DNA from: a virus
Reading direction: 5' to 3' (one strand)
Length of the DNA: 64,000 bases
IMG/VR virus record: IMGVR_UViG_3300034418_006037
Location: 25,218-89,217 of that record
The position numbers were made by a program, and so were the translations under genes. The notes under the pieces are model-generated. The model searched no databases. It was not told the DNA's origin and worked only from the letters and a program-made list of their open reading frames with translations. Numbering within the stretch: the first letter of the stretch is position 1; every line of letters starts with the position of its first letter. Below are positions 26,970 through 55,061 of this stretch, in pieces.

Positions 26970-27948
26970 GACCATATCAAGCAAAATGATAGTGCGCAAA
27001 GTAATGCGCGATTTGAATCCTCATAGTCAAAATGGGGATTGGTTACATGATGCCATAGAATGGATCGGAGAAGCTCTAGAACATATAGGGAGTAGTACTC
27101 AGCTTATTACAAAAGTATGTACGGTTCAGATCAAAAATCATAAGGCCGCACTACCTGCTGACTTGTATTACCCGCAGCAGGTGTCAACAAGCGGTCATCC
27201 TGATGCTGAAACTATATATGAAGAGCTAGAAGGTCTCTCCGAAAAGATAGCTGATCTAAAAAGAACCTATGTGGATGCCAAAGAAGATATGGCTAGCCAC
27301 TTAATAAAGACACGAAGTGGTGCTGTCATATCTAATCTTGATGAGAAACTGCTAGATAAGTACAACTCAATATCTAAAAGCAGTGATTATGCTCTTAGAG
27401 ATTTGTCATCAAGAGTTGTGGTGCTTGAAAACACTTTGATGGGTGGAGATCATGGTGAACACCTTATTCCTCTGAAGTATTGTACTACTACTTTCCCTGA
27501 GTCAGAACCTTGTCCGGATTGTCATCATGATAGTCACGTAGAGTGTTACTTTATTGAAAGTGACTACATTAAAACGTCATTTGCATCAGGCACTGTATGC
27601 ATAAGTTACAAAGCATTTCCTACAGACCCTGATTGCTACCCCTTGGTGCCAGACGATATCAGCTTCAAAGAAGCTATGTTTTGGTACATATACAAGAAGA
27701 TGCTACTTGGGGGTACGGTTGATGTAAATAAGAACGGGATACAGTATGATTTTGCTGATCAGAAGTGGAAGTACTACTGCACACAAGCACGCAATGCTGC
27801 AGTGTTCCCAGACATCGACAGAATGGAAAGCTTTATGAATCAGTGGGTTAGACTTATCCCCAACATCAACAGACACGACCATGTGTTTGATGAGCTTGGG
27901 GACAGGGAAGACATATATAGAGGACGTTACAATACCTATGGTAGATGA
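26956..27948 (+). CDS. Putative tail ring/tail-tube adaptor protein
   Basis: A 330-residue protein. Helical start (SSKMIVRKVMRDLNPHSQNGDWLHDAIEWIGEALEHIG), beta segment VCTVQIKNHKAALPADLYYPQQV, a helical insert about residues 94-170, then KTSFASGTVCISYKAFPTDPDCYPLVPDDISFKEAMFWYIYK. The beta-then-LP-then-helix core is that of crAss-like ring proteins, and it directly precedes the muzzle-type gene, as in phicrAss001 where a ring protein gene comes immediately before the muzzle gene. CPDCHHDSHVEC could be a small metal site. It overlaps the muzzle gene by four bases (ATGA). Confidence 0.7.
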   Translation: MAVYKTISSKMIVRKVMRDLNPHSQNGDWLHDAIEWIGEALEHIGSSTQLITKVCTVQIKNHKAALPADLYYPQQVSTSGHPDAETIYEELEGLSEKIADLKRTYVDAKEDMASHLIKTRSGAVISNLDEKLLDKYNSISKSSDYALRDLSSRVVVLENTLMGGDHGEHLIPLKYCTTTFPESEPCPDCHHDSHVECYFIESDYIKTSFASGTVCISYKAFPTDPDCYPLVPDDISFKEAMFWYIYKKMLLGGTVDVNKNGIQYDFADQKWKYYCTQARNAAVFPDIDRMESFMNQWVRLIPNINRHDHVFDELGDREDIYRGRYNTYGR

Positions 27949-36340: not shown

Positions 36341-38514
36341 GAAGAAAAAGAGCACAATTTGGTCAGGTCGTAAGTGGGTACGTAGATCCTACTCCAGAAG
36401 GTCTTGATAAAGCGTATGATAGACATATGGATAACCTCCTTATGAATGCAGCTATTAGAACAGAAGCTAACCAATTGAATTCTGCTCCTTTTGAAGGAGA
36501 CAGAGAAGCTCGTAGGCAGCTCTTGGATAATACTGACAGAGCTCTTACTTCAATAACAGACAGTGCATCTTCTAATTATGGTAACCTGTCTAATATGACA
36601 GCTGCTGTCACTAGAGCTTCTGCTGAGTATCAAAAAGGTTCTCAACCTATAAAGCAGAACTTAGAAAACTATACTGCTTATAAGAGCGAGCTAGATGAGC
36701 TGCTAAAAAACAAGAGGATAGACGCAGAAGACTACGAAGGTAGTTTAGATCTATCTACGCTCGGATACAATGGATTCTCCTACGACGAAGCAGGTAACGC
36801 AATCAATATGTTTGAGGGTGTAAAAGCTTGGCAAATACCTGACATACAAAATCGTATCCGCCAGGCTTTGCAAGGGCTTAAGCCTGACTCTGTAATAACG
36901 TCGAATACTATACTTGGAGGTGAACAAGATGGTATGGTTACACTTAAGACTGCCTCAGGCACTACACAAGTAAGTGAAGAGAAAGTAAGAGCAGCTCTTC
37001 AGGGAGTCATGAACGATCCTGAGGTTCTTGGATACTACGGAAGGAAAGGAGAAATTAAAGCGGCTCGTATGGATGAGCCAAACCTTAGACAGGAAATTGC
37101 TAGGATGATGGATGATGAGTCTAAGTCTTCCAATCCTGATCCGGAGAAAGTTGGTAGACTTTCTCAAGCTTTAGAGGCAGGAAATATAGAGGAGATGCGG
37201 CAAATTGTTTCAGATGACATTAGAGACAATATACTTGGGACAATAACTGATGGAGCAGTAGAAGGAAACTCCTTCAGACAAACATCAAACACCACAGACA
37301 GATCTTATGATGAGTTGTGGATGACAAACTACAAGCAGAAACTTGCAGATGAGTCTTGGAAAATGCGTCAAGATTATGAAGCTGCACAAGCTGCAAAAAC
37401 TGCAAAGACAACTGAGCCTGTAACGCCTAGTCAGCCCGGATTTGTAATCACAGAGGATGGAATAGTATATAGAAGAAGAGGAGGTGAATATGCTGGAGAG
37501 CTGCATAATGAAATAACTGCAGTTGAGGCAGAGCTTGAAGAGCTTCTTACTCTGTACGAAAATCCTCAGAATCAATTATCAGCTGAGGGAAGGGAATCTC
37601 TGGAGAGGCAAATAGAAGATAAAGCTACAGAAGCCAGGATGTTAAACATTACATTCCAAGATTTGTACAAGGACACACCACAAAATTTGCTAGACAATGA
37701 TTCAGAGTGGGAAGCATTGCAGGAAGATGAACCATTTTCGTTTACTGGAGTAGGTGCTGCGGGTGGAGTTGGGATTTTACAGACATTGCGCCGTCAAAAC
37801 AAACAAAAACGGGAAAAAAGAGACTTCTTGATGCAAGAAGAATATGCATCACCTGTGGGTGAAAGCACTGTCATATCAACTACATACGTAGATCCTATGA
37901 GCCTTGGTTTGACTAAAGCGCAAGCTGATCAAATGGATGCTTTCTTTGAGGCAGGTATCAAGCCTACTCAAATGGTTTTAGATCCTGTTACAGGCCAAAC
38001 TATAACATATAAAGAATGGAAGGCCGGCAAAGATGCAAATGGTGATCGTAGACCTCAAGACCTTGTAGTTAAAGATGTTGCAGTATCTTACTCTGCACCT
38101 ATAGGAGGTCAACCTACAGTAAGACTTTCTATGGCAAATAAAGATGGTCAAAGTGCATCACTTCTTGTTCCTGTAGGAAAAGGAAGTTACTTCGACATCC
38201 CTGGACTAAGCCAGTATTATGATAATCCAGGAGCTAAACTGGTAAGCGAGTTGCTTACTTATAAGCATGAGGGTCTTACAGACATAGATATGAACGATGG
38301 TCTAAAATGGGTGGGAGAATTCACAACAAATCCCAGCGATCCAGCTGCTCCAAAAGTTCAGCAAGGCGGCTATATAACTGCTGATCTTACTACATCAGAA
38401 GGAGGGACTATAAGCATATACAACGCGCAAGGAGAACTTATTAATACTGTAGGCTTGCTTGATCCTAGATTACAGACCTTTGCAAAACTCTACAACATAA
38501 AACTTACTATATAA
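36337..38514 (+). CDS. Putative ejected cargo protein 2
   Basis: A 725-residue, largely helical protein. N-terminus RRKRAQFGQVVSGYVDPTPEGLDKAYDRHMDNLL echoes other crAss-like cargo proteins with a basic RAQFG-like start. Residues 30-130 are helical (NAAIRTEANQL...YTAYKSELDELLKN). A later stretch near residues 480-510 (GVGAAGGVGILQTLRRQNKQKREKRD) has a short hydrophobic patch and a basic cluster. The C-terminal 180 residues (STTYVDPMSLGLTKAQADQM... to AKLYNIKLTI) are mixed. It is joined to both neighbours by one- and four-base overlaps, so it forms an operon with 34301 and the giant gene. Confidence 0.6.
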   Translation: MRRKRAQFGQVVSGYVDPTPEGLDKAYDRHMDNLLMNAAIRTEANQLNSAPFEGDREARRQLLDNTDRALTSITDSASSNYGNLSNMTAAVTRASAEYQKGSQPIKQNLENYTAYKSELDELLKNKRIDAEDYEGSLDLSTLGYNGFSYDEAGNAINMFEGVKAWQIPDIQNRIRQALQGLKPDSVITSNTILGGEQDGMVTLKTASGTTQVSEEKVRAALQGVMNDPEVLGYYGRKGEIKAARMDEPNLRQEIARMMDDESKSSNPDPEKVGRLSQALEAGNIEEMRQIVSDDIRDNILGTITDGAVEGNSFRQTSNTTDRSYDELWMTNYKQKLADESWKMRQDYEAAQAAKTAKTTEPVTPSQPGFVITEDGIVYRRRGGEYAGELHNEITAVEAELEELLTLYENPQNQLSAEGRESLERQIEDKATEARMLNITFQDLYKDTPQNLLDNDSEWEALQEDEPFSFTGVGAAGGVGILQTLRRQNKQKREKRDFLMQEEYASPVGESTVISTTYVDPMSLGLTKAQADQMDAFFEAGIKPTQMVLDPVTGQTITYKEWKAGKDANGDRRPQDLVVKDVAVSYSAPIGGQPTVRLSMANKDGQSASLLVPVGKGSYFDIPGLSQYYDNPGAKLVSELLTYKHEGLTDIDMNDGLKWVGEFTTNPSDPAAPKVQQGGYITADLTTSEGGTISIYNAQGELINTVGLLDPRLQTFAKLYNIKLTI

Positions 38515-41500
38515 TGTCTGAAAAGGTTATAGATCCTTTCACAGGGCTAGAGGTTGTCAAGTCTGGTGTTGTAGACCCTTTCACAGGGCTTAGCTATGAC
38601 ACTGCACCTGTTAAAGATGATACTCCTATCATGCCATCATCTACTGAGATGTTTCTTGATGGGGATCCAAATAGTTATCTAAGCTATGGTGTGCCTGTTC
38701 TTCCTGGGTTAGACATTGATGAGATGCGTGCTCAGCGTCAGTCTCGTGCAGAGAAGTGGGGCAGAGGATTGATGAAAGCTGGTGTTACTACCGCAATGGC
38801 TTTTACTGAAAACACTCTTGGAGCGCTCAACGGTATAGGTGAAGCTATTTATTACAGGGACTGGACAAAGCTTGCAGACAATACTACAGGTAGAGCAGTA
38901 GACAGCGTTAACGCTTGGATGCAAGACAACTTTAGAAACTATTACACCAAAGAAGAACAGGAAGCGATAGGACTTGAGAATCTTGGATACGCAAACTTCT
39001 GGGGAGATAAAGCTGCTAACGGTCTTGGGTATGCTGTAGCTAGTGTAGCAAGTCTATATGCTACTGGTGGAGTAGGAATAGTTACTAGAGGATTAGGATT
39101 GGCTGCAAAAGGAGCTAAGGCTGCTGTAGGTGCTGCAGCTGCTACAAAGGCCGGGAGTAGAGCAGCTGGTATTTATAGAGCTTCTAAAGCTATTGCTACT
39201 GCTGAAAAGCTGTACAAAACTGCTTCAAGTTCAGCTAAAGTTAGGAGGGGTATAAGTGCTGCTAAGCAAGCTGAGGTAGGTATAAGTATGTCTCATGCAG
39301 AAGCTGCAGTAGAAGCCAGAGAAGCACTGAAGCACGCAGAAGAAACAATGCTAGATCAGATAGCTGCGGAGAAAGGAGTTGACCGTATGCAGCTGAGTCA
39401 GAGCGATAGAGAAAGAGCTAGAGAAGAAGCCAGCAAGATTGGTAATGCTGTGTATGCTTCTAACATGGCGGTACTTGCACCTACAAATCTTGCCATGTTT
39501 GGGGGGCTGTTTAAATCTAAATTCAAAGCATCAAGATCTAGTCTTAGTGGCTTTACTAAAGATGCAAAGTCTAAGCAGTGGTTGGACATGTGGTCTGCTG
39601 ACAATGCAAAAGCTTGGCAAAGAACTGCTTCTAGGTATTTGCAGAATCCTGCAAAAGACGCAGTTACTGAGGCTTTTCAGGAAGGAACCCAATTTGCAAT
39701 TGGACAGGCTGCGGGCGCCGCTGCAGAAGGTGAAGGCTATAGCAGTGTTCTTGATTGGTTAGGTGCTATAGGTGAAGGAGGTAACGAGATACTCAAAGGA
39801 GATAAAGAAGGTATCGAATCCGTTCTGCTTGGTGCTATTATCGGGGGATTCATGGGTGGTGTTCAATCCGGGATATCTCGTTATGGAAAAACAGAGGAAG
39901 ATGCTCAGCGTAAAAAAGTACTGGATAGACTCAACAGCCCTACCCTATATAAGGTTGTGGATAACGCTGAGTTTGCTAAGAACCAGGAGACTATTCTAAA
40001 AAAGATGCAAGACTCATTGGAGTCTGGGGATCACAAAGGTTACAGAGATGCTCAGCTAGAGCTGATCCAAGAGAACGTTCTTTTCCATGAACGCAATGGT
40101 AGCATAGACATGTTCATGGAAAGAATAGATGATGCTAAGTATATGGAGAAAGAGGAGTTTGCAAAGGCTTTTGGGCTTCCTGAGAACTCTGACTTTGACC
40201 ATAAACAGATAGTTTCTGATCTAACGCAGGACGTTAAAAACCTAGTCCAGATAAAAAGAGAGCTTGATGCTATTGCTCCAGGTCAAGAAACAACTGGTCT
40301 TCCTAGGCTACTTACATCTAAGGATGTACTTGAAGAGGAAAAGGACAGACTAACTGAAGAGTACCATATGAAAGACTTCCTTGTCAGGAATAAGAGCAGA
40401 TTGCTTGATGCTGACGGAAGGATATCTAAGATGCGTGCTGAGCTTATGGATCTGTTCAATCCTTTGAGCAAGGAAGAAAGAGCAGTTGCAGAGAGAACTA
40501 TTAAGAGGCTTACGTACAACTCTAGTAAAATTCGTAGACTCCAGAAGAAAGAAAGGGAGCAAGGACTTTCCGAGGGGGAGAAGGAACAGCTAGCTTCTTT
40601 GCTTGCAGAAGTAGACCGTAATGAAGCTGCACTAGAGGCGGAAGAAGTAACCGATGATCAATTAGGAGCAGACAAGCAGAGCTATAAAGAAAGGCTTATA
40701 AAGCCCAAGGAAGAGAGGGAGGATAAAGTAGAGCCGCTTTCTCCTGAACTTAGAGAAGCTCTTAATAATATAACTAAGAGTATATCAGATCCTTCTGACA
40801 GGCTAAAGGCAGAAGAACTAGCTAGGGATATATCTAGACTGGCAGGAGACAGAACGCAAGCAGCGTATGCACTGAACGAACTTCTTAGCAATCCGGAAAG
40901 AAGAGCGGGTTACATAAGAAGGCAGATGAAAACTAAAGAAGAGGCTGCTCAGAAGGAAATTGATAAGTACGCTGATAATTCTATTGCTAGCACTACAACT
41001 TCTGCAGAGCTCTACGATCTTGGGATACTAGCTAAAGATAAAGGCGTATCTCCTGCTGCTCGAAAGAAGCTAAACGACGAGTACAAGAGGAGGCAAGAAA
41101 ACGAAGAGGTTGTAGCTGTAAGACTAAACCTTGAAGACCTACCTGTTCTTAAGAAGAAAAAACAAGAACTTGAGGCTAAGAAAGAGAAGGAGGAACTTAC
41201 ACCTGAAGAGAAAATAGAACTATTTGTACTAGATACTATAATACCTAGTAGAGAAGCTCTAGGAGAGCAAGGTATAGAAGGCAATAGAAGTAGGCAGAAA
41301 AAGGCTCAGGAAGCAGCTAGGAAGAAAGCGGAGGAGGAAGCAGCGGCAAGGGCTGCTGCGGATGCAAAAAAAGAAGCAGACAAAGCCAATCAAACTAACG
41401 ACTCTTCTACAAACAACACTACTAATCCAGATAATGATGGGTCAAGAAATCCTAGATCCCCATCACCATTTCAAAGTGAACTGTACATCGTAAATGGTGA

Positions 41501-44500
41501 GTTCCAACTTAAAGACATAACCACTGATAAGAACGGTAATACCATAAGACGTAAAGCGGTTGTCTTTAAAAATGGTGAGCCAGTACCGGGTACTGATGTT
41601 GATCCTGCACATCCAAGAACGATAGATAGAGGCTTCTTAAAGACAGAGGAGGGGTACAAGGAAGTCATGGAAAAGGGCGTGGAGTTTGAACACGTTCGCA
41701 GCACTAAGGACAATAAGAACCTAGAGTATATATATGTAAAGCTTGCGGGCACAAATACATACTTGGGCTTCCTTCCCAATCCTATGAGCCAAGGTTCTAA
41801 AACTAGTAACCTGCTTATGGAACTTATTGCTGGTAATAAGGTAACAGCTAAAGTAAACACCATAGAGTATGCTGGAAAAGGCAACTTCCTTGCTGAGACT
41901 AATGATCAAGGAGAGCCTGTCTTTAAGCCTGTCTCTGAGGTACTAGGTGAAGACGTTCCTCCTAGTTTTGTAGGGTTAGGTATTGTACAAAAAGACAATA
42001 TCACTGTAATAGCTCAGAACAAGTCTGATCAGGAAATAAACGAAGCTCAGGAGAATCTCAATTTGAGAAGAGATTCAATGGAACTTACTGCAGGACAAGT
42101 TGTTATGGTAGTAAAGCTCCCTAACGGAGATTACACTGCTCTTACTACTAGTACTAAAACTCTAGGTGAAGAGGGCTACGGAAGACTTGTAGATATAATT
42201 GCCAAGAAAGGTGAGGGCAATACCGTGTCTGAGATTAAGGCTCTTCTTGGTATACCTAATAACTGGATACAAGGTAAGACTTCATTCTTTGTAACACAGC
42301 TTAAGAACTCAGGAAAAGTAATATTCAATTTTGAGCATAAAGGTGCAATCATAGGCATGTCTTATGATGAAGTATCTGGTATGCTTGAAAGTGGGGCACC
42401 TAAGTTTTTCAGCTATGGTAAGATGGTTGAAGAAACAACTGATGAGGGTGATGTTGTAACTGTATTTGAGAGAGAAAAGCCTAAGAAGGAAGGGGGCAAT
42501 GCGTCAACTGCTGAATATCAGAGACTTAAGGAGGGGATGCTAGAGTCTTTCAAAGCTGCTGCTATGAACTCAAGAGTTCAGGTTAGCAAAAAGGCACTGC
42601 AAGAACTAGAGGGGGCGTATACAGATCCTGTAACAGGAAAGACTTATGCTTCCTACCAAGAATTTGCTATTAAGGAACTGCTTACTACAAGTAATAGGTT
42701 TCACAAAGGGCTTCCAACGTACGACCACAGAGTTTCTATGTCTGTTAATGTGCAGGAAGGAGCTAATACTTCGGAGACTACCGGTAGCAGCGGCAGGGTA
42801 AAACCCGAAAACACCGAAGGTAAAAAGAAGAATACCACTAAGAAAAGAAAAGGTGGAGCTGGAACAAAGCACAACTTCGGAGAGCCTACCAACACAGAAC
42901 CTACTAGTAACGAAACAAAATTTAATCCTAGTAATGCTGTAGCTCTGACTCCTGAAGAGGAAGCAGAACTTATGGCTTCTATAACAGGTGAGGGGACTAC
43001 TGCAGAACCACCAAGCAAAGATGACACCAGTGGTGCCGACCGGCAAACTCGAGATCATCGGCTACGGCAAGAGCGTGAGGCAGTGTTACAGCAAAGTGAC
43101 ACTATTCCGGAGGGTGATTACATCAAGGGTAAGACAGGAGAGAAGACCAAGGATGTACTCACGCGCTATGTCAGAGGTTATCTGGAAGAGGTACTTACAC
43201 TAGACATCAAAACAGCTAGTTATGATGCTATGTCGAAGAATTTAGTTTTGACTTTGCAGCCGGGGGACACAGAACTGGAAGTGCGCGTGCCCATGCATGG
43301 TATGGTCTTGGGCGGTTCCGTAATATTAGACGTTGACACCAAGCAGGTAATCAATGCATATTTTGATGCAATTGAAAAGGCTGGAGGAGCCGACGTTGCT
43401 GGTATAGTAAGTGAAGAAGAAGCTCGGCAACTAGAGGAGGGCATAAAGAATGCTTATGAACTTCTAAATGAAGCAATAGAAGTTGCAGACTATGAGGGTA
43501 TCAAGTATCAAAAAGAATATATAGAAGCTGCCAAGGCTAAATGGCAAAAGCTTTTTAATACTCCTTATGATGAGTATGTCAAGTCTAACACAAGTAGACA
43601 AAGTTTAGCTGGAGAGACTGACGCAGCGTTTGCAGCTGAGGAAGCCGGAATGGGTGCCGTTGAAGATGCCTTCGTAGATGGATTCCAGCCAGATGAAGAA
43701 GCTGGTGTACCTTTTGTATGGGAAGGAAATGAGTTTAGAATCTTTACTGCAGACGAGATTGAAATTGTATCAGCTACTAAAGAGTTTGTAGCAGATCAAG
43801 GCAAGCTCGGTGTGGATATATACAATGGTCGTAGCTTCTCTTTTGCATCGTCATTTAAAACCTTTCCTCAAGGTCTTAAAGACGAGATAAAGAGAATAGG
43901 AGACCAGAACGCAAGCGATGTTAGCGATGTTCCTTTTAGTCTTAAGGATTCTACTACAGGAGAAGTAAGTATTGACACTTTCTTCTTTGTAAGCGGGCTA
44001 CACCCAAATGGGGAAGTTGGGTACGCCGTTGCCAACTATGATTCATCAAAATTAAGTGAAGACAATCGTAGGTTCCTAGCACAATATTTGACTACTGAGA
44101 CGAATATACCTGATGGTAAGAATATGGCGGTTAAGCAACTAAGGGAAAATATGCACGCCGTATACATAGCAAATGAAATTCCATTTGCAGAGTTGATGAA
44201 AGCCCCTAATGGAGGCGTAAGGACTGGTAGAGGTGGAAGAATGGGTGTAACATTCCTTATGAAATCCAGTCCTACACCGGAGACATTAGATGCTTTAAAG
44301 AAAAGAGCTGATCTTCTGTTTACCAGGTCTATAGAAAACATAAACAACAAACAATACGTCGAAGACCTTCGTATTAAGGTAAACGGAAAAATACAGGTAG
44401 GACCTCCTAGCTATAGCCTTAAGTCTCCAAGTACTCCTAAGAGGGGTAAAATGGAACAAACTCAAGCTGTGTCATGGCTCAGAGCGAGGTTTGGTAAAGA

Positions 44501-47500
44501 CTCAGTGAGTATTTACACCAACATGAAAAAGGTTGGTAGCGCTGTTGTCCATGGATATATGGAGAATGCAGCTGTTCACTTGTGGTCTAATGCTGAAGTA
44601 GGTACTGAGTACCATGAAGGATATCACTTGTTCTTTAGAACATTGCTTAACGATAAGCAGAGAGAAGCCATATACCTGGACGCACTTGCAGAGTTTGGTG
44701 AACCTACAGCTGAAGATATAGAAAAAGCTAAAAGAGGCCAACTTAATATTACCAACAAGGAGGCGCGTCTGCTTGCCTTGGAGGAGAAAATGGCTGACGC
44801 TTTCCGTGACTATGTTTTGTCTCAGAAAGCCCCTAAGAGTTTTGGGCAAAGACTGGTTAAGTTCTTCAAAGATCTGTATGCATACATAAAAGCATTTGCA
44901 GGTAAGCCTGTTGCTATGAGGCAAGCGTTTAGGCTTATAGAGTCTAACCGCATACCGGCATCTTATAGTAGAACTGCACAGGCGTTTTCACCGGGAGCTG
45001 CGTTCATGATGAAGCAGTATGCTGCTGACCCTCAAACTTTTAGAGAGCTTAGAGATATAGCTATATACAAAGCTCTAAATGAAGTCAGTGCAAGTGGGGC
45101 AAACATGCAAGACTTGCTAGGTAGCCCTGAGACAGCAAATGTCAAGGGTGGAGATTCTACTATACGTAACTGGTTCTTGAGATCTGCTTTTCATAAAGAC
45201 AGCCCGGATATTATGACGGGTGGTAGAACTAGAGAACCAATTTCAGATAGGGAGTTCGGAGCATTGCAGAGAGCATATGATGATCCTCAGCAGTTCCAAG
45301 CTGTACTCAGTGACTATAATATTAAACTGGGTGCTCCAGAGTTTACCCATGATGGGGAAGTTATGCCTTCACAGATGATTGGGGAAGAAGCTGCAGATAA
45401 TGCACAGCTTTTCCTAGAGGTCTATGAGCATTGGCATGACAAACGCGGAGAGCTCGGAGGTGTCAATGTAAGAGGATTCCGTACAGACATAAGAGATCGT
45501 CTTCGTGATTACGGTTTCAAAATTTATGACTCCGAACAAGCTAGAGAAAGAGGAGAAGTAAATGACAAGGAAGAAGGAGCTGACAGAAACTACTCTGTGT
45601 CTTACGCTCAAACTGACCCAGCCGCTGCTCTTGGGGATAAGGCTAGGAGAGTACTGTCCAGAATACCTGTGAAATCAACATCTGAATCTTACTTCGGGTT
45701 TGAAACTTATATGCCTATAGAGGACATATATCATGAGATACAAACTGCTGTAGTTGGAAGTGAAAGCTATGTAGATATGATGGAGAAGCTCAAGAGCAGA
45801 TCTTCCAATATCAGTAGCCTTACTGCAGTTTATGACTTTATCCAAAATCTGTCTACTCCGGAGAAAGCCCTTCTGTATAGTGTATTTTCACAAGCTATGA
45901 CACCGTACAAAATGATTGTCGTAGAGAGCAGCTCATCCTCACAGCCTGGTAAACCTAGGAAAGTAGTCAAGATTATAGACAGTAGTTCTAAGAGTATTGA
46001 GAGATATTTTACTGCTAAGTGGGCAGAACAAGCTACTTCTGTGGCAGGAATATATAAGGTGAGCGTTAGTGAGGACGGAGACATTCTAGATATACAAGCA
46101 AACCAAGCAAGGTTGGGTAAAGCTCTTAAGCACTACAAGAATATTGTAGACTTAAAAGGTACCGGAGATAGATCCTATGAGGAGCTGGCTGACATGTTGT
46201 TAGCTCTTGGAATTAATATAGCAAAGGACCGAGAAACTGCTGCTAGGAGAGTTAAAGAAGCCTTGCAGATGGAAGGCATATCGGTAAGCAACTTCATCAA
46301 AAGGCCAAACACAAACCTCAAGGATATTATGGAGAACCCCAACAAGCTAGGTAAGCTGGGGAAAGCCAACTATCCTAACATATTCCAGACGGAGAGTACC
46401 ACTATGGCTACTATATCCAAGGTTATAATGTCTAAGTTCGAAGCTCCTGTGGCAGCATCGTTCTTTAACGGCCTTGGTAATTTGATATTCCCAATCAATC
46501 TTAAGAACGATATGAACATCACGTCTGAGATGGTAAAAGACGTGAGCAGTGAAGGCCTTCAGGCTATCATGGAAGGTGAAGAAGGTAGCAAAGGAACCGT
46601 TGGAAGTTACATAAGAGGTAAAGATCGTCAGGGTAATGAGGTAGTTTACAACAGCTTGGCGCATATGATGATATCTACTAAAGCTGGTAAGGAAAGCTTT
46701 GAGATAGTAGACATAGACTCTAAGCGTGAGGGAGATGAGAGAGCTGTAGAATATGACAACTTTGACTATAACGAGGGTCTTTCAGTAGACCTTATAATGT
46801 TTGGGTCTAGCAAAGACAAGAAGTATATAGCTATTGATACTCAGGGAGATAGAAGCAAGTTGTCTTATATGGCCATAGACAACATTCTTAATTCTAGTGT
46901 ACGATCAAGCACTGGTTTCCAAGTCTTAGGTGATAACCCTTTAGAAGCTGCTATTGAAAGGACTTATTTGCTTGATCTGCACAGAATACGAGTAGCAGAG
47001 AAAACTATAGAAAGTACGCCTGACAAAGACCTCATAGCAGGTTACCATGATGGTAGATACAAAGCTCTGCAATTTGGGGGAGAGTATAGAGATACAACTA
47101 ACATAGCACATGATGCTTACCTCCATATGGAGATGGGCAAGCCTATGACAAAAGAACTTAAAAAAGCTGTCAAAGAATATGTAGCTGAGGTAGTTAATAG
47201 GATGGAAACCACCTACTTAGAGGAGATACTTAAAGAAGTTGGGGGAGAAGAGAGGCTAAGGCTTCTGGTTGCTAACAGTGTACAGCCAGGTAATGGTTAT
47301 GTTGTAGGTAAGGAAATAGAATTTGTCAAGGACTACATAAAGATGAATGTAGTTGGACGAGTTATTAGTAGAGAGCTTCTGCGGAATGGTGTGCACTTTA
47401 CAAGTGGTGGCGCTAACTACAATAAACGTTCGCATTTGTCTGGTACCCCTGGTAGACAGTTCTTCACTTTGAGCATGAATATGGATGGTACAGACTATGG

Positions 47501-50500
47501 TATGCTAGATGAGTTCCGAGAGATAACTATAGCAGATAATATATCCAACATGGAGGAGGAAAATCCGGAAGCTTACAAGAGACTGCGCGACGCAATAGCA
47601 GCGCAAAGCACTGAGGAAGCTGCAGATATATTCATGCAGGGTTATAAAAAGTCTAACGGTACCGACGCTCAGGGTATGATAACTATTCATTTCCACAGGC
47701 GTTTGGGACAGGGTCTTGGTTTGTGGACTGCAGTAGATGAGCAGGTATACAAAGAGTACATGTCTAAACCCAAGGGGCAAAGAATTTGGGACGGGGAGAG
47801 ATCACCTATCAGACCTTGGAAAACCTCTTATGACTTTAGAGTTCTCGAAGAGTTTGGAGGATACAATCACCTTATGGCTGTATCTCATAAGAACTCTTAC
47901 GTTGTAATGACAGATGAGCTAGTTGAGGGTGTACCTCAGATGAAAAAGCTCAATGATTGGATGGAATCCAATAACGTACATGTTGCTAACAGTGTGGAAG
48001 CTAAGAAGCTGGGATCGTTCAGAGCGGTCACTGCTGCTAATCTGGAAGAAGCTAGAATACAAACTTTGCCTTCAAGGGGGTTGAAAGTTCCTCAGATTCT
48101 ACCAGAAAAGAATACGCAGAAAACCACCTTTGGTAGACAGCCCCGTAAAAATATGATTGCTAACATCAATCCTACGGAGACTTACTACCTGCGAGATTCC
48201 AACAAGCTTGTAACAGGTAGAGAGCTTATTGATATCTACCAGAAAGCTGTTGTTGCTAAGCTCAACCAAGGGCATGACAAGGTTGTACAAGACTTGGGGT
48301 ACGATGAGGTGATGAATGCTACTACTGAAGCTGAGCAAGTAGCAGCACTTAATAAAATGATACCCAAGCTTAGAGAGCTTCTTACTGAGATAGGTGTTGA
48401 AAAAGATCTGCCTCAGAATATAATGGATGCTCTGGATGTAGTGGCTGATGAGAATGGGGTCGTTACAACTTTGTTGCCAGCGTCTTTCCCCAGCATACAG
48501 CTTAAGCTTGACTCAATAGTTATGAACCTGTTCCGTAAGAACGCCTATCTGATGAAGATGACAGGTGTGGAAATGGTTCAGTTTGGTGAGTACGGAGGAC
48601 ATGAAAAAGATGGGACTCTGAAGTTCTATGATATAGATAATTCCTCAGGTACAGACGTTGTAGTAGGAGCAGAAGTGGACATACGATATGATGTGCTTCA
48701 GGACTTAGGGATAGACCCAGAAGATCCTAACGTTGATATTGATGCAGCTCTTAATAGACTACTTGGCTATCGTGTTCCTCAGCAAGGTAAGTCTTCTACT
48801 CTTATGATGAGGGTTAGGAAGATATTACCTAAGTCTCACCCAGCTGCTGTTAAAGTTCCTCCTGGTGTTACTACCATGATGGGTTCTGACTTCGACGTTG
48901 ACAAGATGTTCGTCATCTTCCCAGAGCTTGAGGTTCAAGAATCTAACCAAAAAGTAAAAGTAACTAAGGTCAGACCTGACTATAACAAACTTACGGGTGC
49001 ATCTCAGGAAGACTTTAATTCTCTGGATTCTAAGGTGATAAACAATATCATCTTTGACACCTTCGAAGCAATTGGTGGGAACATTAATCACATCCATGAG
49101 ACTCTTGCTCCTTTGGACTTACCTGCGGAGCATGACCCAGTAGCTCTTGGACTTCTGAGTATTAGATTCGATCAGCAGACTTTGGATTCTATGACTGTGG
49201 CTGAGAAAAGAGCCGAATCTAAAGTAAAGATTGACATCAATAGTACTTCTGGACGTATTCGAAGTAGTGCGGACAACCAATTGTCAGCTGCACTGCGTGG
49301 TATTTATGCTAACGCCATCGCAGGTCGTAACGTAGCTATTGCTGCTCAGGAAATGAGTGGTGGTCAGCTCTCATGGAAGCCTGATGAATCCGAGTACTTT
49401 GAAGTAGATGGTGTTAGAGTAGGAGAGCTTACTGAAAAAGCTAAGTTCCAAGACTCTATGGGAGTGTTTAGGTTTACAGACTACTACATGTCAAACTACC
49501 TGAGCAAAGCTGTTGACTCTGTTAAGAACCCAATACAAGGACTGATTAACGACAACAGAATAACTGCAGCTCTGACAACCTACATGTTGTCAATAGGCAT
49601 GACTCCAGAACAGGCTATACTGTTCTTGAACGTACCAGTTATTAGGAACAAAGTACAAGAGGCACTTTCTAAAGGTCTTAGCTTGAAGCAGGTAGTTAAG
49701 ATAGGGGCAACTAGAAAAGATCCTGTGAAGCCTGTTCCTATGAAGCTTTCATCTGAAGAAATGAAAGAGATCATACATTCGGATAAGCCTTACGGAGAAA
49801 AAAATTATCTAGACATGCTGATGTTTATGTCTCAGCAAAGCACTAAGCTAGATACTTTGTACAAACTTCTTAGTCCAGATAAGATTGATAAAATTGGAGG
49901 AACAACACAAGCTCACTTGGCACTAATAGATGCTGCATCTAACCAAGATGCTGAAGTCTTTGGGGGTCTAGAATCTCTAAAGATGGTAACTGAAGGAGAT
50001 GCATACCCTATAGTTAGAGCTATGTATGCAGCAATGGAGCGCAGCTTGGATGTAACTACAGCTCTAGGATTTATATCAAGACAGCCTTCAGTGCAGAAGT
50101 TTAAGAAGGACATTAAAAAGATAACCAATAAGGAAGTCTTCAATGCTAACACGCACAGAGACATAAACAAAGCAATACTGCATCATCTAGTGACTAAGCC
50201 TGGGTCGCCTCTCTTTGAGAAAGGACATTTAGATGTGGAGTTTATCTTTCCCACCTTTGTTAGAGGTGATGTAGCTAAGCTTTTAAAAGCTATGCAAGAT
50301 ATTACAGGAGGTACTTCCAACCCTGTAGTAGATGCTTTTAGTATAGCTGAAGAACCTATGCCTAATGGTCAAAAGTTTACTTACCTGCAGGTAGACAAAA
50401 CACAACTTTCTACCAAAGAGCAGAAGGATCAGTTCACCATGACTCTCCAAGGTATGATTGATGACCTTGGTTTGTACGGTGAGGAAAACATTCCTTTCGT

Positions 50501-53500
50501 TAGAATGTTTGTCAAAACTGTTATAACAAACAGTATACTTACTACAGGCTTTTCTCCTGGTTTGAAGAGTTACTTTGAGCTTATACCCGTTGGATATTTA
50601 TCTGACTTGGGTGTAAGGGAGCATCTTAATCAGGAGATGCTCAAGCTGGGAACTGATGAGAATGCTCTTGAGGATTTTAAAGCAGAGTTCTTATCTAGCT
50701 ATGGGACTCATTATTTCAGAGGTGGTGGTGGAGGATACCTGTTTAATAGATCTAAACTAGCAGGTAATATAGGAAGTGTTGAACAATCCCCTGGAGATTC
50801 AGAGTGGGTTATTAAAACAAAAGGCAAGCACAAGTTCCTTTACAAAAGGATAAATCAAGGAGACACTAACTATGGAAGTAACATGTCTACGTATGGACCT
50901 GTTATTACTAAGGGTAAGCAACATGTCTTCTACGAAGCTAACCTGAGATTTAAAGGCGAAAAGTATAATAGAAGCTTGTTCCAAGCTGAAGATCAGATAC
51001 TTGAGCCACCGTCTAGAGCATACACAAGTGTGTTCCGTACTACGGATACTCAGCAAAGTAGAAACCTGGATAGCTTTGGGTTTGTTCGTGACACACCTCG
51101 AGGGGCTAGAGAGAAAATAGCAAGACTTAGAACTTCTTTTGCTAAAGCCGGAGTCACAGTAAGTGTTGTTGAAGCTTCTCTTCCTTTAGGAGTGAAGGGT
51201 GAGGTTAGAAATGGAGTAGTCTACGTAGACCCTGCCCAGATTACTGAGGACACTACGTATCATGAGTTTGGGCACATACTTATAGATATGCTCCCACAGG
51301 ATCAGGTTGATAGGTACATTGAGGAAGTCAAAAAATCTGACCCAGGATTAGCTGAAATAGTTGCTGCATCTTACCCAGAGCTGGAAGGCCGTGATCTTGG
51401 AAAGGAGATACTGGTAACAGCTATAGGTATACAAGGCGCTAAAATTGAGAGGAAGAATCCTAGTAAACTGCAGATACTGATTAACAGGATACTGCGTGCT
51501 ATCGGCAAGCTGTTTGGGATTAAGCCAAGTATTGCAGCTGTTCTTGCAGAAGAAATGTTTGCCGGAGATATCAAAAGAGAGTTGTCTGGAGAGTTCAACC
51601 CTAGTGTACAGAAATCTAAAAGGCTACAGAACAAACTTAATAAGGTATACAATCAAGTTAGAGATAGCTTGGAGAGGCAACGTATAAGACTCAAAGGCTT
51701 GCCAGAGAGTAAGTCTAAGGACGGGAAGATGCGAGACGTCAGCGCTCTTATAAACAACATCGATCAGATGAAAGAGAAGCTGGATTCAAATACTGCAGAT
51801 CTAAACGAGTTTTTTGACTTCCATCAATACGTTGTAGGCAGAGTTACCATCCTAGAAAATATGATGGATGATATCAGATCTACGGAAAATGAATCTGTAG
51901 ACCTTGATACTATGTACGACAGGCTCAATAAAATTGAGGAGCTTCGTAAGACTTTGGAGAGTTTGTACAACGAAGAGGAGAGCTCTTCCACAGTCACTCT
52001 TGTAAAAGATCTTCTATCTACTATGCGTCAGGAGGGTCTGCTGGATCAATTCCCAGATGAAACTAGAGACCTACTAGTTGATCTAGACTCTAGTCTTACT
52101 AGGCTTAGAGAGCTCAATGAGGACTACTACAAGGACATTCTCCCGATGACTACTAAGACATTGTTGCAATATGCTAGCCCAGAGGCAGCAGCAGCAATTG
52201 AACAGGAGAAAAGCAGAGTTGAAGAAAGTGGGGATCTGTCAGGATTTAGGCCGTTTACTCTTATAGAAAGAAAAACAGGTCGGTACGGCAATAAGATGCC
52301 TGAGTTCATACAGCTTAACAATGAGTACTTCTCTGATGAAAGTACTATGACTAGAGAAGAGTTTGATGAAGAAGCTATGAAGCTGAAGCTCAAGTATTTA
52401 GATAGCAAGCTTGTAGGTAAAGCTCAGCTAGATACAGAGCTCACAGAAGCAATGAGATCTAAAAGCTACTTCTCTTATATGCTTGATCCTATTGTATATT
52501 CTAGACAGCAGAATCTGCAACTGTTTGCACTTGCATTGAAGGATGCATTGAATAAAGCTAACGATGAATCTCTTGACTTCATATATAATATGGAGGACAA
52601 GTTTGAGAAGTTCAAGGAGTGGAAAGGGGGCTCAGAACTAAATGCAGCTAATCTTTATGAGGATCTTCTAACCAATATTAAAATTCGAGTAGGAGACAAA
52701 ACTATAAATGCTCTTAGCTTAGTACAGCAGTTCAACGTAGATGATTACTATGGTAAGTATTATAATTACATAGATGCTATATCTAAGAAGTATAACAAAC
52801 CTGCTTATGACTCAGATCCTGAGTTAAAAGAGGAGTGGTTCAAAAGTGAAGAGGCACTACTCTATAATCAAGCCAAGCTAAAATGGTTTAGAGACAATAC
52901 TGAGCCTGTAGAAAAAGCTGCTGAAAAGTACAAGGCTGCCCTGAAGGAAGCTAATGCTCTGGAGGACAGGATGAAAATGCTTAGTAAAGAAGATAACCCT
53001 GCTAATAGAGAGCAAATACTTCTCCTACAAGCGGACTATTACAAGGCACAGAATAGACTTAAGAAGATGGGCAAGTTCGACCAAGAGTCTGGGCGTATGG
53101 TGTATATGGGTGAACTTGCTAAGCCGAACAAAAGCTATGAGAGTGACAAGTGGAAGAAGATACAGGCCACTCCTGAGATGAAAGAGTTCTATGATTACAT
53201 AGTATCTAACTACGCTAGATCCCAAAAGATTATAGGGGAAAGTGGTCTCAGAGTCAATAGTTGGGATGAGTTCTCATATGTGATGCCATCTGTTCGTAAG
53301 GATGGTTTGGGCACACTTGTGGAAGATGGATGGAAAGAGTTTAAGAATGAGATAGGAAGAGATTTCCGTAGACTTGACACAGATACAGAGTTTGGTATGA
53401 TGACCTCTAATGACGGTCAAGAAATACGAGGTATACCTAAGTACTATACTAACCCTGTTGATGAAAAAAATATCTCCAGAGACGTTGCTGCTAGTATGTC

Positions 53501-55061
53501 TCAGTTTGTACATATGGCAAACACATACAAGGAAAAGTCTAAAATAGCTGGTCTGGTTGCTAGCATGCTTGCATTGCATGAACGCAAGGGAGTTATTAAA
53601 TATCAGAGTGGTGTTCCAGTTATGGACCAGGTGGCTAATATTGCCAGAAAAGCTGCAGAGCATGTTACTAAGAGAGGCTCTGAGGACAACTTAGATCTTA
53701 AGCACCTTAAGGATTTTGTTGACTCTGTATTCTATGGAGTTGTAGATGTTCCAGACATAAGTGCAGATGCTCAAAAAACTATGAGCAAAATAATAGGTTT
53801 TACGGCTGTTGTAGGATTGGCGGGTAACGTATTGCAGATAGGTAACCAGGCTATTCTTGATAATAACATGACAGCTCGGGAAGCTTTTACTAAGCAGTTC
53901 TTTAAACCTGACGTTTACGCAGATGCTGTTAAAACCTACTTGTTTGAGCAAGGTTTAGCTCTTCAAGACGTGGGTGCATTCAGACCTAAGGGGAAGCTAG
54001 CTAGAGCACTGCAAAGTTTCGACGGACTGGTAGATGTGGAAAACGTATTTGCTAATGTGGGATCTAACAAAGTAAAGAAGCTGATAAACAAAAAGAATCT
54101 TTACTTCGCACAGGGTGGAGTAGAGCATCAAACTGCTTCAGTTCGTATGTTGGCTGTATTGAAGTCTACTGTTGCTAAAGACAAAGACGGCAACGTTATC
54201 ATGAAAGATGGTAAGGAAGCCAACATATGGGATATGCTCATAGAAAGTGAATCCGGTAGGCTTGTCATAGACCCTAAAGTAGCTAACGTAACCAAGTCAC
54301 AGTTAATAGCTCGTATACACGGACTAAGCAAAAGAACTAACCAAGTAAAAGGTAGCTTTGACCGAGCTATGGCTCAGCGTACTGCAACAGGTAAGTTCTT
54401 GCTTCTGTTCCGCAACTACCTTATACCAGGCCTACGTGCAAGATTTGGTCATGGTGATATGCTCCAAGTAGATCATGAGCTAGGAGCAATAACTAGAGGT
54501 AGCTACAAGACAGGATTCGATTTCTTGAGATCCATGATCGAAAATAAATTGAATTACACCAAGGTAATGAGTATGATGAGTGAGGTAGACAAGCAGAACA
54601 TGCGTAGAAATCTTTACGATGTGATGACAGTTACTCTCACTATGATGATGTATAACCTCCTAAAAGGAATAGCGGATGACGATGATGAAAATTACCTTGC
54701 AGCGTTTGGTGCCTACCAAGCTAGGAGATTGTATACAGAAACTACTGCATTCCTAAATCCAATGGAAGGTGTGAGAATGCTTATGAGGCCTGTAGCATCT
54801 GTGAATTTGGTGGAGGACGCATTTATGCTAGCTTATACTGGATTTAGGACTGCTCAGTATGAAATAGGTGCTTACTCTGATGAGGAAGAAATACTCAAGG
54901 ATATACAGTACCAAAGAAGATCAGGAGCAAATCAGAAAGGAGACTCGAAGTTCATAGGAAGAATGAAGAAGGTGTTCCCGTTCCTTAGAACATGGGATAC
55001 AGTTCCATGGGTTGATGGCTCTCCGGAAAGAGTTATGGCCAAGCTTAAGTTCTTCGAATAA
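38514..55061 (+). CDS. Giant virion protein with RNA polymerase motif and two zinc-protease motifs
   Basis: One uninterrupted 5515-residue frame. Residues 166-215 and about 437-449 are hydrophobic (ASVASLYATGGVGI, LGAIIGGFMGG), suited to membrane contact during ejection. Low-complexity linkers lie near 923-983 and 1418-1475. First HExxH: H2034-E-G-Y-H2038, with LEEKMADAF (E2090/E2091) as probable third ligand. RNA polymerase-type loop: GSD3459-F-D3461-V-D3463-K-M, preceded by a YRVPQQGKSS segment, as in crAss-like virion polymerases where DxDGD has become DxDxD. Second HExxH: H4250-E-F-G-H4254, with GKEILVTAIG downstream. Coiled coils occupy about 4370-4560, and two more membrane-like helices lie at 5094-5115 and 5370-5388. 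In known crAss-like phages these functions are spread over several large genes, so this looks like a fusion or a polyprotein cut after synthesis. Start overlaps the previous stop. Confidence 0.85.
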   Translation: MSEKVIDPFTGLEVVKSGVVDPFTGLSYDTAPVKDDTPIMPSSTEMFLDGDPNSYLSYGVPVLPGLDIDEMRAQRQSRAEKWGRGLMKAGVTTAMAFTENTLGALNGIGEAIYYRDWTKLADNTTGRAVDSVNAWMQDNFRNYYTKEEQEAIGLENLGYANFWGDKAANGLGYAVASVASLYATGGVGIVTRGLGLAAKGAKAAVGAAAATKAGSRAAGIYRASKAIATAEKLYKTASSSAKVRRGISAAKQAEVGISMSHAEAAVEAREALKHAEETMLDQIAAEKGVDRMQLSQSDRERAREEASKIGNAVYASNMAVLAPTNLAMFGGLFKSKFKASRSSLSGFTKDAKSKQWLDMWSADNAKAWQRTASRYLQNPAKDAVTEAFQEGTQFAIGQAAGAAAEGEGYSSVLDWLGAIGEGGNEILKGDKEGIESVLLGAIIGGFMGGVQSGISRYGKTEEDAQRKKVLDRLNSPTLYKVVDNAEFAKNQETILKKMQDSLESGDHKGYRDAQLELIQENVLFHERNGSIDMFMERIDDAKYMEKEEFAKAFGLPENSDFDHKQIVSDLTQDVKNLVQIKRELDAIAPGQETTGLPRLLTSKDVLEEEKDRLTEEYHMKDFLVRNKSRLLDADGRISKMRAELMDLFNPLSKEERAVAERTIKRLTYNSSKIRRLQKKEREQGLSEGEKEQLASLLAEVDRNEAALEAEEVTDDQLGADKQSYKERLIKPKEEREDKVEPLSPELREALNNITKSISDPSDRLKAEELARDISRLAGDRTQAAYALNELLSNPERRAGYIRRQMKTKEEAAQKEIDKYADNSIASTTTSAELYDLGILAKDKGVSPAARKKLNDEYKRRQENEEVVAVRLNLEDLPVLKKKKQELEAKKEKEELTPEEKIELFVLDTIIPSREALGEQGIEGNRSRQKKAQEAARKKAEEEAAARAAADAKKEADKANQTNDSSTNNTTNPDNDGSRNPRSPSPFQSELYIVNGEFQLKDITTDKNGNTIRRKAVVFKNGEPVPGTDVDPAHPRTIDRGFLKTEEGYKEVMEKGVEFEHVRSTKDNKNLEYIYVKLAGTNTYLGFLPNPMSQGSKTSNLLMELIAGNKVTAKVNTIEYAGKGNFLAETNDQGEPVFKPVSEVLGEDVPPSFVGLGIVQKDNITVIAQNKSDQEINEAQENLNLRRDSMELTAGQVVMVVKLPNGDYTALTTSTKTLGEEGYGRLVDIIAKKGEGNTVSEIKALLGIPNNWIQGKTSFFVTQLKNSGKVIFNFEHKGAIIGMSYDEVSGMLESGAPKFFSYGKMVEETTDEGDVVTVFEREKPKKEGGNASTAEYQRLKEGMLESFKAAAMNSRVQVSKKALQELEGAYTDPVTGKTYASYQEFAIKELLTTSNRFHKGLPTYDHRVSMSVNVQEGANTSETTGSSGRVKPENTEGKKKNTTKKRKGGAGTKHNFGEPTNTEPTSNETKFNPSNAVALTPEEEAELMASITGEGTTAEPPSKDDTSGADRQTRDHRLRQEREAVLQQSDTIPEGDYIKGKTGEKTKDVLTRYVRGYLEEVLTLDIKTASYDAMSKNLVLTLQPGDTELEVRVPMHGMVLGGSVILDVDTKQVINAYFDAIEKAGGADVAGIVSEEEARQLEEGIKNAYELLNEAIEVADYEGIKYQKEYIEAAKAKWQKLFNTPYDEYVKSNTSRQSLAGETDAAFAAEEAGMGAVEDAFVDGFQPDEEAGVPFVWEGNEFRIFTADEIEIVSATKEFVADQGKLGVDIYNGRSFSFASSFKTFPQGLKDEIKRIGDQNASDVSDVPFSLKDSTTGEVSIDTFFFVSGLHPNGEVGYAVANYDSSKLSEDNRRFLAQYLTTETNIPDGKNMAVKQLRENMHAVYIANEIPFAELMKAPNGGVRTGRGGRMGVTFLMKSSPTPETLDALKKRADLLFTRSIENINNKQYVEDLRIKVNGKIQVGPPSYSLKSPSTPKRGKMEQTQAVSWLRARFGKDSVSIYTNMKKVGSAVVHGYMENAAVHLWSNAEVGTEYHEGYHLFFRTLLNDKQREAIYLDALAEFGEPTAEDIEKAKRGQLNITNKEARLLALEEKMADAFRDYVLSQKAPKSFGQRLVKFFKDLYAYIKAFAGKPVAMRQAFRLIESNRIPASYSRTAQAFSPGAAFMMKQYAADPQTFRELRDIAIYKALNEVSASGANMQDLLGSPETANVKGGDSTIRNWFLRSAFHKDSPDIMTGGRTREPISDREFGALQRAYDDPQQFQAVLSDYNIKLGAPEFTHDGEVMPSQMIGEEAADNAQLFLEVYEHWHDKRGELGGVNVRGFRTDIRDRLRDYGFKIYDSEQARERGEVNDKEEGADRNYSVSYAQTDPAAALGDKARRVLSRIPVKSTSESYFGFETYMPIEDIYHEIQTAVVGSESYVDMMEKLKSRSSNISSLTAVYDFIQNLSTPEKALLYSVFSQAMTPYKMIVVESSSSSQPGKPRKVVKIIDSSSKSIERYFTAKWAEQATSVAGIYKVSVSEDGDILDIQANQARLGKALKHYKNIVDLKGTGDRSYEELADMLLALGINIAKDRETAARRVKEALQMEGISVSNFIKRPNTNLKDIMENPNKLGKLGKANYPNIFQTESTTMATISKVIMSKFEAPVAASFFNGLGNLIFPINLKNDMNITSEMVKDVSSEGLQAIMEGEEGSKGTVGSYIRGKDRQGNEVVYNSLAHMMISTKAGKESFEIVDIDSKREGDERAVEYDNFDYNEGLSVDLIMFGSSKDKKYIAIDTQGDRSKLSYMAIDNILNSSVRSSTGFQVLGDNPLEAAIERTYLLDLHRIRVAEKTIESTPDKDLIAGYHDGRYKALQFGGEYRDTTNIAHDAYLHMEMGKPMTKELKKAVKEYVAEVVNRMETTYLEEILKEVGGEERLRLLVANSVQPGNGYVVGKEIEFVKDYIKMNVVGRVISRELLRNGVHFTSGGANYNKRSHLSGTPGRQFFTLSMNMDGTDYGMLDEFREITIADNISNMEEENPEAYKRLRDAIAAQSTEEAADIFMQGYKKSNGTDAQGMITIHFHRRLGQGLGLWTAVDEQVYKEYMSKPKGQRIWDGERSPIRPWKTSYDFRVLEEFGGYNHLMAVSHKNSYVVMTDELVEGVPQMKKLNDWMESNNVHVANSVEAKKLGSFRAVTAANLEEARIQTLPSRGLKVPQILPEKNTQKTTFGRQPRKNMIANINPTETYYLRDSNKLVTGRELIDIYQKAVVAKLNQGHDKVVQDLGYDEVMNATTEAEQVAALNKMIPKLRELLTEIGVEKDLPQNIMDALDVVADENGVVTTLLPASFPSIQLKLDSIVMNLFRKNAYLMKMTGVEMVQFGEYGGHEKDGTLKFYDIDNSSGTDVVVGAEVDIRYDVLQDLGIDPEDPNVDIDAALNRLLGYRVPQQGKSSTLMMRVRKILPKSHPAAVKVPPGVTTMMGSDFDVDKMFVIFPELEVQESNQKVKVTKVRPDYNKLTGASQEDFNSLDSKVINNIIFDTFEAIGGNINHIHETLAPLDLPAEHDPVALGLLSIRFDQQTLDSMTVAEKRAESKVKIDINSTSGRIRSSADNQLSAALRGIYANAIAGRNVAIAAQEMSGGQLSWKPDESEYFEVDGVRVGELTEKAKFQDSMGVFRFTDYYMSNYLSKAVDSVKNPIQGLINDNRITAALTTYMLSIGMTPEQAILFLNVPVIRNKVQEALSKGLSLKQVVKIGATRKDPVKPVPMKLSSEEMKEIIHSDKPYGEKNYLDMLMFMSQQSTKLDTLYKLLSPDKIDKIGGTTQAHLALIDAASNQDAEVFGGLESLKMVTEGDAYPIVRAMYAAMERSLDVTTALGFISRQPSVQKFKKDIKKITNKEVFNANTHRDINKAILHHLVTKPGSPLFEKGHLDVEFIFPTFVRGDVAKLLKAMQDITGGTSNPVVDAFSIAEEPMPNGQKFTYLQVDKTQLSTKEQKDQFTMTLQGMIDDLGLYGEENIPFVRMFVKTVITNSILTTGFSPGLKSYFELIPVGYLSDLGVREHLNQEMLKLGTDENALEDFKAEFLSSYGTHYFRGGGGGYLFNRSKLAGNIGSVEQSPGDSEWVIKTKGKHKFLYKRINQGDTNYGSNMSTYGPVITKGKQHVFYEANLRFKGEKYNRSLFQAEDQILEPPSRAYTSVFRTTDTQQSRNLDSFGFVRDTPRGAREKIARLRTSFAKAGVTVSVVEASLPLGVKGEVRNGVVYVDPAQITEDTTYHEFGHILIDMLPQDQVDRYIEEVKKSDPGLAEIVAASYPELEGRDLGKEILVTAIGIQGAKIERKNPSKLQILINRILRAIGKLFGIKPSIAAVLAEEMFAGDIKRELSGEFNPSVQKSKRLQNKLNKVYNQVRDSLERQRIRLKGLPESKSKDGKMRDVSALINNIDQMKEKLDSNTADLNEFFDFHQYVVGRVTILENMMDDIRSTENESVDLDTMYDRLNKIEELRKTLESLYNEEESSSTVTLVKDLLSTMRQEGLLDQFPDETRDLLVDLDSSLTRLRELNEDYYKDILPMTTKTLLQYASPEAAAAIEQEKSRVEESGDLSGFRPFTLIERKTGRYGNKMPEFIQLNNEYFSDESTMTREEFDEEAMKLKLKYLDSKLVGKAQLDTELTEAMRSKSYFSYMLDPIVYSRQQNLQLFALALKDALNKANDESLDFIYNMEDKFEKFKEWKGGSELNAANLYEDLLTNIKIRVGDKTINALSLVQQFNVDDYYGKYYNYIDAISKKYNKPAYDSDPELKEEWFKSEEALLYNQAKLKWFRDNTEPVEKAAEKYKAALKEANALEDRMKMLSKEDNPANREQILLLQADYYKAQNRLKKMGKFDQESGRMVYMGELAKPNKSYESDKWKKIQATPEMKEFYDYIVSNYARSQKIIGESGLRVNSWDEFSYVMPSVRKDGLGTLVEDGWKEFKNEIGRDFRRLDTDTEFGMMTSNDGQEIRGIPKYYTNPVDEKNISRDVAASMSQFVHMANTYKEKSKIAGLVASMLALHERKGVIKYQSGVPVMDQVANIARKAAEHVTKRGSEDNLDLKHLKDFVDSVFYGVVDVPDISADAQKTMSKIIGFTAVVGLAGNVLQIGNQAILDNNMTAREAFTKQFFKPDVYADAVKTYLFEQGLALQDVGAFRPKGKLARALQSFDGLVDVENVFANVGSNKVKKLINKKNLYFAQGGVEHQTASVRMLAVLKSTVAKDKDGNVIMKDGKEANIWDMLIESESGRLVIDPKVANVTKSQLIARIHGLSKRTNQVKGSFDRAMAQRTATGKFLLLFRNYLIPGLRARFGHGDMLQVDHELGAITRGSYKTGFDFLRSMIENKLNYTKVMSMMSEVDKQNMRRNLYDVMTVTLTMMMYNLLKGIADDDDENYLAAFGAYQARRLYTETTAFLNPMEGVRMLMRPVASVNLVEDAFMLAYTGFRTAQYEIGAYSDEEEILKDIQYQRRSGANQKGDSKFIGRMKKVFPFLRTWDTVPWVDGSPERVMAKLKFFE
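38526..38609 (+). repeat. Tandem 42-base repeat coding twice for 'V(I/V)DPFTGL'
   Basis: At the N-terminus of the giant protein, residues 5-14 (VIDPFTGLEV) and 19-28 (VVDPFTGLSY) form two copies with a 14-residue period. The core CCTTTCACAGGGCT is identical in both at the DNA level. It may be a sorting or packaging tag; this is unproven. Confidence 0.7.

Follow-up and report, generated by a model that had tools for sequence, protein, structure and literature searches.

A single open reading frame of 5515 residues in a crassvirus contig joins, in one predicted chain, a virion RNA polymerase and the two large partner proteins that are encoded separately in phages such as phi14:2, and comparison with relatives indicates that complete fusion of this kind arose at least twice. 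The window, meaning the whole 64,000-nucleotide stretch that was analysed, spans 25218-89217 of a virus contig that is 89,217 bp long. First-pass annotation had described a frame open from 38514 to 55061 that holds HEGYH, DFDVD and HEFGH, and the frame and all three motifs are found exactly where it placed them. The frame starts with ATG and encodes 5515 amino acids followed by a stop (616 kDa), with no HExxH or D-x-D-x-D besides these three motifs; given the composition of the protein, 0.064 HExxH and 0.056 DFDxD would be expected by chance, and the probability of an open frame this long is ~1e-147 under the base composition. The features to which the text refers are, in window coordinates and with residue numbers of the giant protein:

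13309..13995, + strand, crassvirus tail ring protein 2 (PF25702, E 6e-44)
26956..27948, + strand, crassvirus tail ring protein 1 (PF24228, E 5e-56)
27945..34301, + strand, muzzle-like virion protein (PF25729, E 3.5e-4, below the cut-off; phi14:2 g071 weakly matched)
34301..36340, + strand, cargo protein C1 homologue (crAss001 gp45, 7qog_M, E 4.6e-8)
36337..38514, + strand, 725-aa candidate cargo protein C2, assigned by position (synteny; weak T7_gp14 Pfam match, below the cut-off)
38514..55061, + strand, fused crassvirus virion RNA polymerase in a single frame (N part, Zn1, RNAP, Zn2, C part)
38697..39926, + strand, N domain, residues 62-471, homologous to the N-terminal regions of crAss001 gp47 and phi4:1 gp038
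44181..44462, + strand, junction 1 linker, residues ~1890-1983, poorly conserved; boundary at ~1933 in the split relatives L005-L015
44463..44945, + strand, Zn1 zincin-like domain, residues 1984-2144
44613..44627, + strand, HEGYH, residues 2034-2038, putative zinc site with a conserved LEExxA..F downstream
47490..49340, + strand, RNA polymerase core, residues 2993-3609, homologous to phi14:2 gp66 (PDB 6VR4)
48888..48902, + strand, DFDVD, residues 3459-3463, catalytic metal motif by homology
49473..50243, + strand, downstream RNAP region, residues 3654-3910, conserved in relatives
50811..51107, + strand, junction 2 linker, residues ~4100-4198, poorly conserved; boundary at ~4153 in split relatives
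51108..51704, + strand, Zn2 zincin-like domain, residues 4199-4397, homologous to Zn1
51261..51275, + strand, HEFGH, residues 4250-4254
53121..54923, + strand, C domain, residues 4870-5470, homologous to crAss001 gp49 and phi14:2 g065

By the matches of its portal, two tail ring proteins and cargo protein C1 to crAss001 or to crassvirus families, the contig is a crassvirus (order Crassvirales), in keeping with its earlier description as crAss-like; the portal (L023:16929-19130) matches crAss001 gp20 (7qog) with an E-value of 1.2e-75. The giant gene follows C1 and the frame at the C2 position, the site occupied by the RNAP-associated genes in phi14:2 and crAss001, and the C2-position frame overlaps it stop to start, its last base being the first base of the giant frame (TAATG). 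Elsewhere in the window, adjoining rIIB-like (PHROG, E 2e-6) and rIIA-like (E 7e-22) genes were observed on the minus strand of this crassvirus contig (57687-61546), and a plus-strand frame of 2179 aa (2312-8851), upstream of the ring and muzzle genes, was without any match in a PHROG search.

Homology to known crassvirus proteins is present in the N-terminal, polymerase and C-terminal regions of the chain. Domain limits were set by domain profiles, whose E-values are inflated for the sequences used in building them, and the E-values quoted here are from single-sequence searches where they matter. Residues 3017-3495 matched phi14:2 gp66 (6VR4) with an E-value of 3.7e-15 in an alignment that spans DFDVD and places it on the DFDID of gp66 (GSDFDIDKM), bearing out the comparison with gp66 drawn in the first-pass annotation, and a tblastn search against gp66 agreed (8e-15). 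Among 14 diverse polymerase sequences, GxDFDxDK was essentially invariant, with D467, F468, D469 and D471 of the aligned core identical in 14/14, and the alignment to 6VR4 suggests that the window polymerase would contain two double-psi barrels. The N part matched phi4:1 gp038 (E 5e-18) as well as crAss001 gp47, and the C-terminal 600 residues matched crAss001 gp49 (4e-23); a homologue of the crassvirus C domain was also observed in a cyanobacterial phage (Leptolyngbya phage Lbo-JY46, PP438436.1, 62492-63871, E 3e-16). The N domain contains a hydrophobic Gly/Ala-rich stretch near residues 165-215, and the hydrophobicity cut-off applied was exceeded in a fused relative (L031) and in phi14:2 g067, but by no segment of the window protein. 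Pfam and PHROG scans of the giant protein gave phrog_32390, on the N part, as the sole assignment, and residues ~500-1930 and ~2200-2950 had no detectable match to phi14:2 g067 or g066.

Both of the zinc-protease motifs that had been reported lie in conserved zincin-like domains. In a single hhalign comparison these two domains aligned HExxH on HExxH (probability 96.3, E 1.8e-9); they are thus homologues and represent a duplicated module. In nearly all crassvirus lineages where Zn1 was found, it displayed HEx[FYW]H together with a downstream LEExxAxxF, as in crAss001 gp47, which carries it as HEAFH. Zn2 has an invariant Glu, second His and distal Glu in 48/48 aligned sequences, but crAss001 and a large number of other clades have lost the first His. 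AlphaFold models of the two domains, built on alignments of 43 and 46 sequences, predict a glutamate-zincin layout for both, with confident cores, strands, a helix bearing HExxH and a helix bearing the conserved Glu. For residues 1934-2244 the AF2 model reached a pLDDT of ~82-95 over the Zn1 core, with strands at 65-91, a helix at 98-111 holding HEGYH and a helix at 148-170 holding EExxA; in the Zn2 model, a helix at 97-109 holds HEFGH and a helix at 142-159 holds the invariant Glu. A Foldseek search of PDB structures returned nothing significant (best for Zn1, MATCAP, E 0.21; best for Zn2, 6cz6, E 0.022), and PDB and Pfam profile searches with Zn1 and Zn2 gave chance-level matches only. Against predicted viral structures (BFVD), the matches of Zn2 were to giant structural proteins of phages (1e-7) and to a SprT-like protein (E 0.021, probability 0.98). 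Support for the zincin label thus comes from motif, conservation and predicted topology, and not from a significant fold match. In a large set of three-gene crassviruses (L041, L042, L050, L055, L061, L065 and relatives), the Zn1 domain was not detected.

We surveyed ~100 IMG/VR loci together with reference phages. Domain order was largely kept, but the string of domains was divided differently, over one, two or three genes: N|Zn1-RNAP|Zn2-C, N-Zn1-RNAP|C and all parts in one frame were each observed, as were arrangements with N-Zn1 on the opposite strand (the crAss001 type) and with RNAP and C fused and N separate (Intestiviridae). Relatives at ~32% identity (L005-L012, L014 and L015) have three adjacent genes, cut at positions equivalent to window residues ~1933 and ~4153. 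Complete fusions fell into two groups. Clade A comprises the window, L031 (5347 aa; 56% identity to the window in the polymerase core), L032/L033 (5557 aa; 47%) and L037/L038 (5331 aa; 33%), along with the partial contigs L034 and L036, while clade B comprises L075, L080, L082, L091 and L092, with 5.5-5.7 thousand residues and an N-terminus whose homology to the N part has an hhalign probability of 98.7%. In one of the clade A relatives, L034, a long insertion resembling an extra domain is present at junction 2, just upstream of Zn2. Trees of RNAP plus C placed clades A and B apart, each with 100% SH-aLRT support, and counted three state changes at junction 2 and six at junction 1. A single origin of complete fusion, with A and B as one clade, was rejected by the AU test (p-AU 1.3e-6), for which the tree came from a quick maximum-likelihood search and the A+B group was defined once that tree had been inspected. 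Because the two clades stand apart on the trees and joining them is rejected, fusion of all the parts is, on this reconstruction, an event that occurred at least twice.

A close counterpart among known phages is the g067-g066-g065 set of phi14:2 (1797, 2180 and 1421 aa, a sum of 5398 vs 5515 in the window), in which the parts have the same order, are adjacent and on one strand, and the polymerase is homologous across DFDxD; all three proteins are annotated from virion MS/MS. What are three genes in phi14:2 form one gene in the window, as the first-pass annotation had recognized, and Zn1 and Zn2 were not detected in phi14:2. In crAss001, homologues of the window parts are gp47 (N plus Zn1), gp50 (RNAP) and gp49 (C), all present in virions, but these are encoded by three genes on two strands and Zn2 is without its first His. 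The further statement that known crAss-like phages carry separate giant proteins holds for phi14:2 but not as a rule, since two-of-three fusions or giant genes are annotated in Carjivirus, other Intestiviridae and Suoliviridae. Carjivirus and other Intestiviridae resemble the window in that the polymerase and C part are fused (4091-4620 aa) and a zincin accompanies the N part, but two genes are involved and the N part is separate; GenBank names in Carjivirus MW067002 are 'RNAP catalytic subunit fused to unknown RNAP subunit' and 'RNAP associated protein fused to zincin protease'. The giant polymerase genes of Suoliviridae are of similar or larger size (cr113_1, 4329 aa; cr130_1, 5801 aa; cr272_1, 6386 aa), but there a separate downstream gene is taken, by position, as the C part. 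These are possibly the crassvirus RNAP genes of up to ~6000 aa mentioned in a review (PMC10136315), and cr113_1 is fragmented when read with the standard code. The polymerase genes of cr271_1, cr113_1, cr130_1 and cr6_1 (L113, L116, L118 and L119) were deposited as 'nuclear pore complex-like protein' or 'DprA-like DNA recombination-mediator protein'.

Two systems outside the crassviruses also bear comparison. The N4-type virion polymerases of Schitoviridae are giant single chains with an NTD-RNAP-CTD layout that are ejected into the host, a likeness to the window protein in working; none of the tests run in this analysis indicated homology. According to the literature they contain a single-subunit polymerase of another fold class (PMC12633501; PMC10925440); the window polymerase is of the gp66 type. 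Thermus phage P23-45 gp96, a virion protein of 5,002 residues, combines a two-barrel polymerase (DFDGD) with a metallopeptidase and membrane segments (PMC10770324), but its polymerase lies at the N terminus of the tape-measure protein of a long-tailed phage.

Based on these comparisons, we consider it likely that the giant frame encodes a virion RNA polymerase and two large partners in one chain that is packaged, ejected and put to transcribing early genes. The proteins gp47, gp49 and gp50 of crAss001 are virion proteins (PMC10172136; PMC6235969) and packaged cargo, with ~six copies of each allowed, for which ejection before the DNA in a partly unfolded state has been proposed (PMC10172136). 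The phi14:2 RNAP enters the cell with the DNA and then transcribes early genes (PMC7886860; PMC10136315). The N4 polymerase is an ejected single chain of 383 kDa with a likely membrane NTD, a polymerase and a regulatory CTD (PMC12633501), and the virion polymerase of phage DEV is an ejection protein (PMC10925440). From these analogies we infer packaging, ejection and transcription for the window protein, as well as a chain that stays uncut, and it is most likely one ejected chain. Three adjacent late genes, the equivalents of phi14:2 g067, g066 and g065, would have been fused in line; chains of ~616 kDa would be packaged near the portal with cargo proteins C1 and C2, leave through the tail partly unfolded and refold in the host, where transcription of early phage genes would fall to the polymerase part. 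As in the N4 enzyme, the N and C parts may serve as modules for ejection, for membrane contact or for regulation. In phi4:1 (L027), the homologues of the N part (gp038) and C part (gp035) are giant virion proteins, and the whole genome gave no match to the crassvirus polymerase profile, which suggests that N and C have a function beyond transcription and are themselves ejection modules between which the polymerase is carried. Fusion would fix a 1:1:1 stoichiometry and joint delivery, and the zincin-like pair may be a duplicated module that accompanies the parts, rather than one that is there to cut the fusion.

What the zincins act on was considered alongside this scheme. A plausible account, to which we give somewhat less than even weight, is that they act on another target after ejection (a host protein, peptidoglycan or other cargo), with fusion only ensuring joint delivery. 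This account is compatible with a single ejected chain. The HExxH of Zn1 is retained in split forms across the order, including the HEAFH of crAss001 gp47, and its use is therefore independent of fusion, but the loss of both sites in clade B indicates that the activity is dispensable there.

The first-pass annotation had raised the alternative of a polyprotein cut by its own proteases, in which Zn1 and Zn2 would separate the N, polymerase and C proteins from one another, either ahead of packaging or later, and we consider this unlikely. Both HExxH motifs are intact in 4/4 full-length clade A rows of the tree, leaving room for processing in that clade, and the junction linkers are long and variable. 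Against this, clade B has WEAFR or a close variant in Zn1, with both His gone, and EExxH in Zn2, and one of its members (L082) has no HExxH, HExxxH or HxxxH motif anywhere. Counted over tree rows, which are related sequences and not independent events, four full fusions keep both HExxH motifs and six, the fused clade B rows, have lost that of Zn1, with the Zn2 motif also lost in the five of these where Zn2 was found, whereas split rows in which Zn1 was found keep its HExxH in 38/38. The motif is thus not needed for a fused existence, since clade B lost it, and is kept where there is nothing to cut, since split forms retain it; judged from this distribution, self-cleavage is neither needed for fusion nor tied to it. 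Moreover, the placement of the two domains, Zn1 ahead of the polymerase and Zn2 within the C part, is the same in fused and unfused genes, and the clade A junctions are variable with no shared motif, although motif-free cleavage is still conceivable. Candidate ATGs for internal translation starts were not conserved at both junctions. A narrower version, in which clade A is a true polyprotein whose zincin pair frees N, polymerase and C at maturation or after ejection and clade B, its zincins dead, has lost the processing and uses the uncut chain, appears quite improbable as well. Because the second fused branch has lost its protease sites, the giant chain probably works whole and is not cut by its own proteases; cutting by other proteases is possible. 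Finally, although split relatives exist, an assembly or annotation artefact joining separate genes is refuted by a contig from another sample (L002) with the same uninterrupted frame at 99.955% DNA identity and no gaps, and by independent fused relatives at 56%, 47% and 33% polymerase-core identity.

Giant and partly fused crassvirus polymerases were already known, and the complete fusion adds a further form to them. Among ~15 annotated records inspected, no gene combined N, RNAP and C, and even the largest, cr272_1 (6386 aa), is followed by a separate giant gene. The literature consulted mentioned neither complete fusion and its two origins, nor a homology between Zn1 and Zn2, nor a fused clade in which both sites are lost. 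With one-, two- and three-gene forms of the string occurring in nature, and protease domains both live and dead among them, it becomes testable whether the polymerase of crassviruses acts with its two partners as a fixed 1:1:1 unit, and what the virion zincin is for. For work on structure and on ejection, a complete single chain is also a simpler target than systems of several proteins, and it offers a parallel to the giant N4 enzyme from a different class of polymerase.
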